Assembly: GCF_026013565.1 (NCBI RefSeq)
Contig: NZ_JAPDOB010000001.1
Location: 124,001 to 188,000, forward strand
Origin: Sphingomonas arvum
Lineage (GTDB): Bacteria; Pseudomonadota; Alphaproteobacteria; Sphingomonadales; Sphingomonadaceae
Length of the DNA stretch: 64,000 nt
Direction: 5' to 3'
Positions 38,441 to 45,729 of the stretch are shown piece after piece. Each line of letters opens with the position of its first letter. Within the stretch, counting starts at the first letter, position 1. Under the pieces are notes generated by a model that saw only the letters and a list, made by a program, of their open reading frames with translations, searched no databases and was not told the origin of the DNA. Position numbers and translations under genes: made by a program.

Positions 38441-38516
38441 ACTCGTCCTGAGCGGAGCACGAAGTGCGTAGTGGAAGGGCGCCCCCCGACTGCGCTACGC
38501 TTCGCTCAGGACGAGT
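38441..38516. repeat. Palindromic intergenic repeat (REP-like)
   Basis: A 76-nt imperfect inverted repeat between the MCP and SDR genes. The outer 14 bases ACTCGTCCTGAGCG (38441-38454) are exactly complementary to CGCTCAGGACGAGT (38503-38516), and pairing continues imperfectly inward. The motif CTCGTCCTGAGCGAAG is of a kind I associate with short dispersed repeats in sphingomonad genomes. It could also act as a terminator-like structure. No second copy was found in this window. Confidence 0.75.
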
Positions 38517-38560: not shown

Positions 38561-39262
38561 ATGAACATCCTTCTCACCGGCGCCAGCCGCGGCATCGGCA
38601 AGGCCGCCTTTGACGCCCTCACCGCCGGCGGCCATCGCGTCGCCGGCCATTCCACTCGCGGCGGCGACGGCCTGCTCGCCGGCGACCTCGCCGATCCGGC
38701 TGCGCCCCGCGCCCTGTGGCAGTCCGCGCTCGACGCGCTCGGCGGGCGCATCGACGTGCTGGTCAACAACGCCGGCGTCTACGAAGCGATTGCGGACGAT
38801 GCGTCCGACGCCGACTGGCACGCGGCCTGGGACCGCACCATGCGGATCAACCTCCAGGCCTCGTCCGACCTCACCCGCCTGGCCATCACCCACTTTCGGC
38901 ACAATGGTGGAGGCAGGATCGTAAACGTCGCCAGCCGTGCCGGTTATCGCGGGGACTCACCCCAGCACTGGCATTACGCCGCCTCCAAGGCGGCGATGAT
39001 CGGCGTCACGAAGACCGTGGCGCGCGGCTATGCGGCGGACGGCATTCTCGCCTTCGCCGTCTGCCCGGGCTTCACCGTGACCGAGATGACCGAGGAATAT
39101 CTGGCCAGCCGCGGCGGCGAGAAGATCCTGGCCGAAATTCCCCTGGGCCGCGTGGCGAGCGCGGCGGAAATCGGGGAGATCATCCGCTGGCTCGCGACGG
39201 ACGCCCCGCCCAGCGCAACCGGCAGCGTGATCGATGCCAACGGCGCCAGCTATGTCCGCTAG
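38561..39262 (+). CDS. Short-chain dehydrogenase/reductase (SDR)
   Basis: A 233-residue Rossmann-fold oxidoreductase. Cofactor-binding TGASRGIG at the N terminus, VLVNNAGVYE, and the catalytic Ser...YxxxK in NVASRAGY and HYAASKAAM. The fold and length are classical SDR; the substrate is unknown. The ATG at 38561 is the first in a sensible position; the frame is open upstream into the palindromic repeat. Its 3' end overlaps the start of the metallo-beta-lactamase gene by 11 nt. Confidence 0.9.
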   Translation: MNILLTGASRGIGKAAFDALTAGGHRVAGHSTRGGDGLLAGDLADPAAPRALWQSALDALGGRIDVLVNNAGVYEAIADDASDADWHAAWDRTMRINLQASSDLTRLAITHFRHNGGGRIVNVASRAGYRGDSPQHWHYAASKAAMIGVTKTVARGYAADGILAFAVCPGFTVTEMTEEYLASRGGEKILAEIPLGRVASAAEIGEIIRWLATDAPPSATGSVIDANGASYVR

Positions 39263-40163
39263 CCTGGCGCTGCTGTTCGCCGCCCAGGCGATCACCATCC
39301 CGCTGGGCAAGCCGCCCGCCCGCATCGAACCGCCCAGGGCGCCGGTCGAGCGCTCCGGGCCAGCATGGTTGCGGGCATGCGGCGACTCCACTGATTGGAA
39401 CCAGCCAGCGCCACCCGTCCGCATCCACGCCAACACTTATCTCGTCGGCACCTGTGGGATCTCGTCGATCCTGATCACCGGAACCCAGGGCCACATCCTG
39501 ATCGATGGCGGAACGGAGCAGGGCGCCGACCTCATCGCCGACAACATCCGCCGGCTCGGCTTCAAGCTCACCGACATCCGCTTCCTGCTGAGCAGCCACG
39601 AGCATCTCGACCATGTCGGCGGCCTCGCCCGGCTGCAGCAGCTGACCGGCGCCACCGTGGTCAGCTCCGCCCTCGCAAAACCCGTGCTCGCCAGCGGCGT
39701 TGTTAGCTCCGACGATCCGCAGTCTGGCATGCACAAGCCGTTCGCCGGCGTGATCGTCGGCCGTACGATCGTAGACGGGCAGGCGCTGCCGCTCGGCAAC
39801 CTCTTCCTCACCGCGCGTACCACTCCGGGCCACACGCCCGGCGCGCTGACCTGGACTTGGGAAACCTGCGAGGGCGCGGTCTGCCGCTCGATGGTCTATG
39901 CCGACAGCCTGTCGCCGGTCAGCAGCGACGCCTACCGCTTTTCCGACCATCCGGCGTACCTCGCCGCCTACCGCGCCTCGCTCGCAAAGGTCGCGGCCCT
40001 GCGCTGCGAAATCCTGCTCACCCCGCACCCCTCTGCCAGCAACATGCGTGATCGGATGGCTGGCCTGAAGCCTCTCTTCGATCCGGACGGCTGCAAGAAC
40101 TACTCGGCGCGCCTGACCGAAGCCCTCGACCAGCGCCTGGCCAAGGAAGCGGCCGAAAAGTGA
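39252..40163 (+). CDS. Subclass B3 metallo-beta-lactamase
   Basis: A 303-residue secreted hydrolase. N-terminal signal peptide ending AAQA. Zinc ligands H116-x-H118 with H194 (PGHTPG), and D120-H121 with H259 (LTPHPS), make the complete B3-type HxHxDH site. The downstream DSLSPVSSDAYRF segment and the YRFSDH motif are shared with B3 enzymes such as L1 and FEZ. An upstream ATG at 39234 is possible. It sits between an SDR and prmA, overlapping both. Activity on beta-lactams is predicted from the motifs; some relatives hydrolyse other substrates. Confidence 0.88.
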   Translation: MSASLALLFAAQAITIPLGKPPARIEPPRAPVERSGPAWLRACGDSTDWNQPAPPVRIHANTYLVGTCGISSILITGTQGHILIDGGTEQGADLIADNIRRLGFKLTDIRFLLSSHEHLDHVGGLARLQQLTGATVVSSALAKPVLASGVVSSDDPQSGMHKPFAGVIVGRTIVDGQALPLGNLFLTARTTPGHTPGALTWTWETCEGAVCRSMVYADSLSPVSSDAYRFSDHPAYLAAYRASLAKVAALRCEILLTPHPSASNMRDRMAGLKPLFDPDGCKNYSARLTEALDQRLAKEAAEK

Positions 40164-41047
40164 GCTGGCGCGTCACGCTCCCCTGCACCCGTGCGCAAGG
40201 TGAGGCGATCGGCTCGGCCGACGACCTCTTCCCCGATCACGACAACCCGCCCGTGGTGGTCGCCGACGAGCCCGACGAGCATCGCCCCGACGACTGGCTG
40301 ATCCACGCCTACTTCGAGGACGAGCCGACCGCAGCCGACCTCGCCACCCTTCGCCAGCTCGCGAGCGGCGAGCCGCAGGTCGAACAGCTTGCGGACGAAA
40401 ATTGGGTGGCCCGCAGCCAGCAGGGCCTCGAACCCATCCGCGCCGGCCGCTTCTTCGTCCACACGCCGGCCCACGCGCCGGACCCGAGTGCGACGAACTT
40501 CCTGATCGACGCCGGCCTCGCCTTCGGCACCGGCCAGCACGCCACCACCAAGGGCTGCATTGAAGCGCTCGACCGCCTTGAGCGTGCGGGCAAGCGCTTC
40601 GCCAACCTGGCCGACATCGGCACCGGCACCGGACTGCTCGCCTTCGCCGCCCTGGGGCTGTGGCCCGGCGCCCGGGCGGTCGCCACCGACATCGACCCCA
40701 TCAGCATCGACGTCACGCGGGACAATGCCGCGGTCAACCGCGTGCCGCTGGGACAGGGCGGGGGCGAACTGCTGCTGGCCGTCGCGGACGGCATGAACTC
40801 GCCCGAACTAGCCGCTCGCGCGCCCTTGGACCTGCTCATCGCCAACATCCTTGCCGGCCCCCTGATCGAGCTCGCCCCCGCGTTCGTCGCCGCGCTCCAG
40901 CCGCATGCGACCGTCGTCCTCGCGGGCCTGCTCGACACCCAGGCCGAGGCAGTCACCGCTGCCTACACGGCGCTTGGCTGCCGACTCCTCGAAGGCGGCA
41001 CCGGCGAGTGGCGGGTGCTGGTGCTCGAAGGCCCTCAGCTCGCCTGA
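40160..41047 (+). CDS. prmA: Ribosomal protein L11 methyltransferase PrmA
   Basis: A 295-residue SAM-dependent methyltransferase that trimethylates ribosomal protein L11. An N-terminal substrate-recognition domain with DENWVARSQQGLEPI, then LAFGTGQHATTKGCIEAL, SAM motif DIGTGTGLLAFAAL and NILAGPLIELAP. The start is GTG overlapping the lactamase stop. Its 3' end overlaps by 13 nt the convergent small membrane-protein gene. Confidence 0.95.
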   Translation: MSWRVTLPCTRAQGEAIGSADDLFPDHDNPPVVVADEPDEHRPDDWLIHAYFEDEPTAADLATLRQLASGEPQVEQLADENWVARSQQGLEPIRAGRFFVHTPAHAPDPSATNFLIDAGLAFGTGQHATTKGCIEALDRLERAGKRFANLADIGTGTGLLAFAALGLWPGARAVATDIDPISIDVTRDNAAVNRVPLGQGGGELLLAVADGMNSPELAARAPLDLLIANILAGPLIELAPAFVAALQPHATVVLAGLLDTQAEAVTAAYTALGCRLLEGGTGEWRVLVLEGPQLA

Positions 41048-44270: not shown

Positions 44271-44373
44271 AGGCGAAGTGGACAAAGTGGACACCCCTGT
44301 TTCTTGTCTCTCCTTGACGACGAACCGTGCATATCTGTAGACGAGCCGAATAGAAGCAGCGCGAGTGCAGCGA

Positions 44374-45729
44374 ATGGATCAGCCGAGCCCGACCGCCAAA
44401 CTGCTGCGTGCGCTCGGCGTGGCGGCGCTCCTGTCCATTGGAATCTTCATCACCTGGCTGCTCATTTCCGACCGCCACTCGCAGTCGCTCGAGGCGCGCG
44501 GCAGCATCGCGGAAGGGTGGGGCGGGCCGCAGGTGGTCGCCGGGCCGGAGCTCAGCATTCCGTTCAAGGTCACCACACCGGGCGCCACCGACGGCAACGG
44601 GCGGACCATCACTGGCCCGGTTGTGACCGAAAAGCGGCTGGTGCTCGCGCCGACCGGCGTCGACCTGACGACCCGCATCGCCCCCGAACGCCGCGCCCGC
44701 TCCATCTACGAAGTCGTAGTCTACCGCGCCGACACCCAGGGCCGCGCGACCTTCGCCCTTCCGGCCGACCTCTCCCGCCTGGGCGTCCCGGCCGGCGCGC
44801 TGGAGCTCAATCGGGCCGAACTGCGCTTCGGCGTCGCCGACCCGCGCGGCCTCAGCGCCAACCCGCAAGTTCGCGTGAATGGCCGCACGCTGCCGCTCGG
44901 ACCCGGCGGCGGGACCAGCCTCGTCGCCACCGGCTTCTATGCGCCAATCGACCTCACCCAGGTCGATCCTGCTCGCTTCTCGGTCGATCTCCGCTTCGCC
45001 CTGCGCGGCAACGAGAGCTTCGCGCTCGCGCCCCGCGCCGGCGACACCGCATGGAAGCTGACCTCGCCCTGGGCTAACCCCAGCTTCACCGGCGGCTTCC
45101 TGCCCGAACAGCGCAGCGTCACGAAGGATGGCTTCACCGCCAGCTATCGCATCGGCAACCTCGCGCTCGGCCGCTCGCTGCTCTTCGTCGACGGCGCCGA
45201 GCCGAGCCGGCCGGAGCCGACACCTGGCGGCGCCAACGCCACCGCCGGGGTCAGCCTGATGCAGCCGGTCGACCTCTACAGCCAGGTCGATCGCGCGACC
45301 AAATACGGCTTCCTGTTCATCGGCTTCACCTTTCTCGCCTTTCTGCTGTTCGACATCATCGGCGGGGTTCGGGTCGCCGCCATCGAATATCTGCTGACCG
45401 GCGCGGCACTGGTCCTGTTCTTCGTCCTGCTGCTGGCCTTTGCCGAGGTGATCGGTTTCACCGCTGCCTACGTCGTTGCAGCCGGCGCCATCGCCGTGCT
45501 CAATACCGCTTACTCGGCGGCCGTGCTCAGGAGCTGGCGGCGCGGCCTGGTGATCGGCGGCATCCTCCTCGGCCTTTACGCCATGCTCTACATCCTCCTG
45601 AGCCTGGAAGCCTACTCGCTGCTGATCGGTTCGCTGCTCCTCTTCGTCGCGCTGGCCGGGACCATGTACGTGACCCGCCGGCTCGACTGGACCGGCGCGC
45701 GCCGCGAGGAAGCGGCGGCGACGCTTTGA
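44374..45729 (+). CDS. creD: Inner membrane protein CreD
   Basis: A 451-residue membrane protein from the ATG at 44374 (GTG at 44365 possible). N-terminal helix LLRALGVAALLSIGIFITWLLI, a periplasmic domain of about 280 residues with family motifs IYEVVVYRA and SFTGGFLPEQRSV, and the conserved QPVDLYSQVDRATKYGFLF leading to five or six C-terminal helices. CreD is linked to beta-lactam and envelope-stress responses in gammaproteobacteria under CreBC, which is not found here. It is followed by the LOG gene. Confidence 0.92.
   Translation: MDQPSPTAKLLRALGVAALLSIGIFITWLLISDRHSQSLEARGSIAEGWGGPQVVAGPELSIPFKVTTPGATDGNGRTITGPVVTEKRLVLAPTGVDLTTRIAPERRARSIYEVVVYRADTQGRATFALPADLSRLGVPAGALELNRAELRFGVADPRGLSANPQVRVNGRTLPLGPGGGTSLVATGFYAPIDLTQVDPARFSVDLRFALRGNESFALAPRAGDTAWKLTSPWANPSFTGGFLPEQRSVTKDGFTASYRIGNLALGRSLLFVDGAEPSRPEPTPGGANATAGVSLMQPVDLYSQVDRATKYGFLFIGFTFLAFLLFDIIGGVRVAAIEYLLTGAALVLFFVLLLAFAEVIGFTAAYVVAAGAIAVLNTAYSAAVLRSWRRGLVIGGILLGLYAMLYILLSLEAYSLLIGSLLLFVALAGTMYVTRRLDWTGARREEAAATL

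Follow-up and report, generated by a model that had tools for sequence, protein, structure and literature searches.

The DNA analyzed here is a window of 64,000 nucleotides from Sphingomonas arvum (contig NZ_JAPDOB010000001.1, positions 124,001 to 188,000), and the gene in question, at 39252-40163 on the plus strand of the window, codes for a protein of 303 amino acids whose assignment as a canonical HHH/DHH metallo-beta-lactamase (MBL) of subclass B3 is supported by comparisons of sequence and fold. The enzyme class is a known one, and what is unusual is the stability of its chromosomal address, between a gene for an oxidoreductase of the short-chain dehydrogenase/reductase (SDR) family and prmA. 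Taking the evidence together, we hold it to be quite probable that this is a native chromosomal B3 enzyme in an old block of overlapping genes, which would be exported, disulfide-bonded and able to hydrolyse beta-lactams; the catalysis, the export, the coupling to the neighbours and the pairing of the cysteines are the parts which we infer.

A subclass B3 enzyme

The reading frame is uninterrupted, 303 codons followed by a stop, and its product reaches 299.7 bits (E 1.5e-89) with the NCBIfam equivalog model bla_subclass_B3 (NF033105), for which the cut-off is 240. An earlier note, made from the letters of the window alone, had claimed an intact subclass B3 gene and proposed a comparison with curated beta-lactamase families, and this comparison bears it out. 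In a search of PDB sequences the top chains are 6mfi (E 7.8e-95), 6auf and AIM-1, and with E values of this size in both searches a chance match is excluded. None of the named allele families comes above its own cut-off among the NCBIfam models listed (the best 25 of 40); the SAM, MIM, AIM, EAM, EFM and ECM models give 267-324 bits against cut-offs of 550-675, which places the protein outside these families.

The six zinc ligands are all found where the earlier note had put them: H116, H118, D120 and H121 in the motif H116-E-H118-L-D120-H121 (39597-39614), H194 at 39831-39833 and H259 at 40026-40028, all on the plus strand. For comparison within the genus we used 37 genomes, the window genome and 36 sampled congeners, 30 of which have an intact copy. 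The ligands are unchanged in all 30 aligned genus copies and in 39 of 39 chosen rows from a wider set, and the same is true of six cysteines, C43, C68, C206, C211, C252 and C281; Q157 is invariant in the 30 genus copies. In SAM-1, where the numbering is the same as in the window protein, the cysteines form the disulfides C43-C68, C206-C211 and C252-C281, according to an excerpt of PMC7392888.

An AlphaFold2 model based on a 39-row alignment has a mean predicted local distance difference test score (pLDDT) of 91.6 and superposes on 6mfi with a Z of 42.6 and a root-mean-square deviation (rmsd) of 1.3 Å over 264 residues. In a fold search with this model the B3 entries come first and B1 enzymes only from Z 20.4 down, and the solved structures closest to the window protein are SAM-1, MIM-1, AIM-1 and SMB-1. 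Subclass B3 membership is supported by the curated equivalog above its cut-off, the matches in sequence and fold, and the invariant ligands.

Other assignments were considered and rejected. The variants B3-Q, B3-E and B3-RQK are defined by a changed residue 116, 118, 121 or 263 (excerpt of PMC10318434); all ligands of the window protein are canonical, and the NCBIfam HARLDQ model gives 170 bits against a cut-off of 350. PDB chains with the HARLDQ motif, which are B3-RQK in print yet “not B3” according to NCBIfam, are intermediate at about 119-144 bits. An MBL of the glyoxalase or RNase type is ruled out, as such chains reach at most 30 bits compared to 321 for the top B3 chain. A closer kinship to MBL-fold lactonases, which the earlier note had considered, was not seen in this search either, no chain among the 45 PDB matches being named a lactonase.

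SAM-1 (MIM-2; 6MFI) comes from a gammaproteobacterial host, Simiduia agarivorans, and has 53-54% identity to the window protein with the same ligands, Q157 and cysteine numbering; the window protein is not a SAM allele, because its 324.3 bits with the blaSAM model are below the cut-off of 550. MIM-1 of Novosphingobium pentaromativorans (6AUF) has 49-51% identity, and the AlphaFold2 model fits it with an rmsd of 1.1 Å; MIM-1 branches off apart from the main body of our tree, in which three characterized proteins are present as aligned segments only. AIM-1 of Pseudomonas aeruginosa (4AWY) has 48% identity and the same ligands, and its Q157 and three disulfides correspond in position (PMC7392888, same excerpt); unlike the window gene it is mobile. 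EAM, ECM, EFM, ELM and EVM of Erythrobacter are B3 enzymes of the same order (table in PMC10740994, citing Girlich 2012), and the EAM, EFM and ECM models give 284-299 bits for the window protein, under cut-offs of 610-660.

A conserved block of overlapping genes

The first gene of the block codes for the FabG-like SDR (38561-39262, plus strand; Pfam adh_short, 123.3 bits). The MBL start lies within its last codons (ATGTCCGCTAG), which gives an overlap of 11 nt at 39252-39262 on the plus strand, and the MBL stop overlaps the start of prmA by 4 nt, GTGA, at 40160-40163 on the same strand, so that the overlapping ends of the earlier note are confirmed. The prmA gene (40160-41047, plus strand) codes for ribosomal protein L11 methyltransferase; the Pfam PrmA score is 172.3 bits, and with NCBIfam prmA the protein stays under the cut-offs (179.1 versus 244). 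The MBL is thus the second of three genes in what we read as an old SDR-MBL-prmA block, and since each start overlaps the previous stop, translation is probably coupled.

The 30 intact genus copies are always flanked by the same SDR and PrmA and all have the 11-nt overlap, with the qualification that a contig end truncates the SDR of L017 and that in L018 the MBL and PrmA are about 420 nt apart. By exact protein matches the genus includes strains named Sphingomicrobium lutaoense, Sphingomicrobium astaxanthinifaciens, Sphingomonas cremea and Sphingomonas arenae. The other seven congeners comprise four without the gene, one with a degenerate frame, one with a broken one and one (G027) which has no SDR match and PrmA at a contig end. 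In G003, G013 and G026, which have no MBL, the SDR stop overlaps the prmA start directly, and in G033, also without the MBL, a spacer of about 150 nt takes its place; read by eye, this spacer (L114) holds an inverted, repeat-like sequence. In G012 a 264-residue open frame (L112) has kept its register with both neighbours, but of the six zinc ligands five are gone, and internal segments are missing as well. From its sequence it would be a pseudo-enzyme or a decaying gene, and retention of the frame may reflect coupling to prmA. The relic shows how the gene can look when unconstrained, and against it the invariance of the ligands in other copies carries more weight. In G010 the MBL is in pieces; prmA is fragmented too, so the assembly is possibly noisy.

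Outside the genus, 365 relatives were confirmed in a pattern-based scan of genomes, of which the best 80 were retained, with flanks of at most 3 kb. Of these loci 53 were placed between SDR and PrmA, two are linked to one of them (L105, and L100, whose PrmA is split in two), and the remaining 25 are linked to neither. The linked loci span Sphingomonas, Sphingomicrobium, Sphingopyxis, Sphingorhabdus, Novosphingobium and several genera of Erythrobacteraceae, and the unlinked ones belong to Gammaproteobacteria (Rheinheimera, Alteromonadaceae, Marinicella and others) and, in two cases, Parvularculaceae. Wider and genus loci together, with 9 duplicates removed before tree building and counting, make a linked set of 77, of which 76 have the SDR. 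The MBL start, assigned by a rule favouring a start near the SDR stop, is at one register relative to that stop in 75 of the 76 distinct SDR-linked loci, and the 4-nt overlap with prmA (offset -3) is found in 56 of 76 distinct loci with a placed PrmA start.

A match at E <= 1e-40, in some cases a distant one, is found in 86 of 199 genomes and 45 of 96 genera of a family sample. Among MBL-less family genomes PrmA was found in 18 of 20 tried, with a nearby SDR in nine of the 18. All nine have an ATG at the MBL register, and PrmA is open in frame with it in seven (L128, L130, L131, L132, L134, L135 and L140; one overlapping start, two unrelated genes). The ATG thus belongs to the conserved end of the SDR and serves whichever gene follows.

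This in-frame PrmA makes the SDR-prmA junction a possible insertion point, and one could imagine a recent horizontal acquisition of the MBL there, the more so as the correlation of the MBL distances is weaker than that between SDR and PrmA. Such an event is, however, very improbable with the same place and register kept across many genera at about 50-72% identity. A Pfam scan of nine flanking window proteins gave eight of housekeeping families and one without a Pfam match, the families being succinate dehydrogenase subunits, methyl-accepting chemotaxis protein (MCP) type, DNA ligase, dienelactone-hydrolase type, CreD and lysine-decarboxylase type; no transposase or integrase is among the nine, which also speaks against acquisition. 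A recent mobile insertion was therefore rejected on gene order, overlap and flanks.

The conserved SDR-MBL-PrmA order and the fixed overlap register are the reasons for agreeing with the earlier note that the gene is ancestral rather than recently acquired. In 15 of 15 hand-chosen close pairs, the window copy being in none of them, the ratio of nonsynonymous to synonymous substitution rates (dN/dS) for the MBL is 0.05-0.26, which is comparable to the neighbours in the 13 pairs having them (SDR 0.05-0.38, PrmA 0.05-0.22). Over 71 of the 77 linked loci (L045, L062, L100 and L112 were omitted, as was any locus in which one of the three genes lacked a long piece), the distances of the three genes correlate with each other, r being 0.87 for SDR-PrmA, 0.62 for MBL-PrmA and 0.50 for SDR-MBL, and 0 of 999 permutations were as high; the history of the three genes is thus partly shared, with some exchange. 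Because the MBL is broad in occurrence and divergent, an old presence followed by losses is tentatively favoured over a single insertion. In free trees the Gammaproteobacteria are nested among Erythrobacteraceae-type rows, but the approximately unbiased test on 48 chosen rows gives p 0.057; a transfer from sphingomonads to Gammaproteobacteria may have taken place.

A literature search joining metallo-beta-lactamase, prmA and Sphingomonas found nothing, and in a related search the phrase “ribosomal protein L11 methyltransferase” is absent among the matches listed; most subscription journals were outside the coverage of both.

Two further features of the surroundings should be mentioned. Between the MCP-type gene and the SDR, at 38444-38513, there is an inverted repeat, CGTCCTGAGC...GCTCAGGACG, which may be a repetitive extragenic palindrome (REP)-like element; its 10-mer has only these 2 matches in the window compared to 0.38 expected, and 5 of 100 shuffles reach 2. 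About 4 kb downstream of the MBL, at 44365-45729, lies a gene for a CreD family protein (Pfam, 390.5 bits). Cre-type systems affect beta-lactamases elsewhere. Among 23 genomes searched 13 bear creD, and in 10 of these it is within 10 kb of the MBL gene, on varying side and strand.

The leader and the question of export

The protein begins with a short, uncharged, hydrophobic leader, MSASLALLFAAQA (39252-39290, plus strand), which aligns with the lipobox region of relatives. The signal peptide of the earlier note is confirmed in part: the hydrophobic stretch and its A-Q-A end are there, but the leader is very short, about 13 residues (19 when counted from an alternative ATG in the same frame, at 39234), and with either start it is free of basic residues. 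There is no lipobox cysteine, the first Cys of the window protein being C43, and it therefore falls outside the lipidated MBLs. Lipoboxes have previously been reported in MBLs of all three subclasses (excerpt of PMC12326980).

The linked loci have leaders of three kinds, lipobox, longer charged and, in most copies of the window lineage, short uncharged. Typed by hand with rules looser than the published consensus, 29 of the 77 have a lipobox; by strict consensus it is 23 of 77, a few of which are matches at the mature cysteine or behind a long alternative start. The AAQ of the window lineage is aligned opposite GAC, AGC, SAC or TAC of some congeners. On the tree at least 15 changes of lipobox state are needed (the ambiguous L062, L065 and L096 and the PDB rows left out), a kind of count which cannot tell gain from loss, so lipid anchoring has been gained or lost often. 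Its loss in the window lineage is possible.

If export as such had been lost in the window lineage, the leader would be dead and the protein would be cytoplasmic with another role beside SDR and PrmA. A leader of about 13 residues is very short indeed, and residues 2-8 are free of K/R in 30 of 36 genus-type lipobox-free leaders compared to 1 of 29 lipobox and 1 of 10 other leaders (the genus-type group was set by locus id, and L029, L030 and L080 are placed elsewhere in the tree). We nevertheless find loss of export distinctly unlikely, as leader hydrophobicity is retained though the letters vary, and as all 35 lipobox-free proteins of the genus type (the degenerate L112 was not counted) have exactly six cysteines, all conserved, which argues for continued export and oxidation of the protein. 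Once exported, the protein would fold in the periplasm, where C43-C68, C206-C211 and C252-C281 would be its three disulfides, the pairing being taken from the positions in SAM-1.

Substrate, mobility and meaning

The lineage would be the SAM-1/MIM-1/AIM-1 group of subclass B3, di-zinc enzymes and here native to the chromosome, with two zinc ions presumably held by H116/H118/H194 and D120/H121/H259. By homology to proven B3 enzymes the window protein is expected to hydrolyse beta-lactams and possibly homoserine lactones too; MIM-1 and SAM-1 are reported to cleave homoserine lactones as well. The native job could even lie in hydrolysing homoserine lactones, or some other lactone or cyclic amide, with beta-lactams as a side activity, but this we regard as rather unlikely. 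AIM-1, whose active site is described as very similar, reportedly lacks lactonase activity (excerpt of PMC7392888), and an autoinducer synthase (PF00765) is present in no more than 5 of 41 genus genomes, the window genome not being one of them. Clearing a cell's own acyl-homoserine lactones is hence not a common role, and signals of others are still possible targets.

Some observations weigh against our reading of the gene as a native, exported beta-lactamase in an old block. Two class A-like proteins elsewhere in the window genome (G000), L145 and L146, which score 169.8 and 199.3 bits where NCBIfam sets its class A cut-off at 200, could be its main beta-lactamases; the serine beta-lactamase model PF13354 matches in all 41 of 41 genus genomes, but it also responds in 8 of 14 control genomes. 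Four of 37 congeners do without the MBL gene and one has it in degenerate form, so it is dispensable. Part of the fixed register comes from the conserved SDR C-terminus, since the nine MBL-less loci with an SDR have the ATG there as well. MBL distances track the neighbours less well than SDR and PrmA track each other and the nearest relatives of the window differ among SDR, MBL and PrmA, which together make some exchange likely. Finally, the leader does not resemble an ordinary Sec signal, and AlphaFold2 gives no helix in it (pLDDT 53-66 for residues 1-20, with few alignment rows there).

Among 72,556 plasmid records 31 match the window protein, none with 60% identity or more. The top two matches, 59% over 264 residues, are LMB-1, an enzyme of the same lineage carried on plasmids by Enterobacter cloacae and Citrobacter freundii. 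It belongs to the Rheinheimera branch and has 99.3% identity with L051, a protein of Rheinheimera pacifica, a kinship already published (excerpts of PMC7855592 and PMC7782503), and neither SDR nor prmA is found beside L051 in flanks of at most 3 kb. The one visible mobilisation is thus from a gammaproteobacterial branch and not from sphingomonads; the window branch is a possible source of resistance enzymes, with no plasmid copy of it found among these records. Read from a longer start, LMB-1 (L147:3881-4795, MH056209.1) has a lipoprotein-type leader ending in LAGC, the coding sequence of the record beginning 54 nt later, and this leader predicts a membrane-anchored B3 enzyme. NDM enzymes are named the sole clinically important membrane-anchored MBLs in an excerpt of a 2025 paper (PMC12326980), and LMB-1 is unpurified because it is hard to express, according to the excerpted review (PMC7855592).

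A wider history may be sketched, which we consider speculative and rather doubtful as a whole. The B3 gene would have been in the sphingomonad SDR-MBL-prmA block for very long, the first residues of its leader dictated by the SDR C-terminus since the start is pinned inside the SDR. The ancestor would have been a lipoprotein; the window lineage would have lost the lipobox Cys and the charge and would export on a short leader, and the gammaproteobacterial lipoprotein branch including LMB-1 would derive from this locus.

What the analysis provides is a map in which many natural sphingomonad B3 genes are at one old address next to the gene for a ribosomal-protein methyltransferase, and because the address is single and old, intrinsic copies are easily told from acquired ones. 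Natural controls are at hand in the clean losses and in the one copy without most of its zinc ligands. The locus also raises the question of soluble versus lipid-anchored B3 enzymes, the clinical LMB-1 included.
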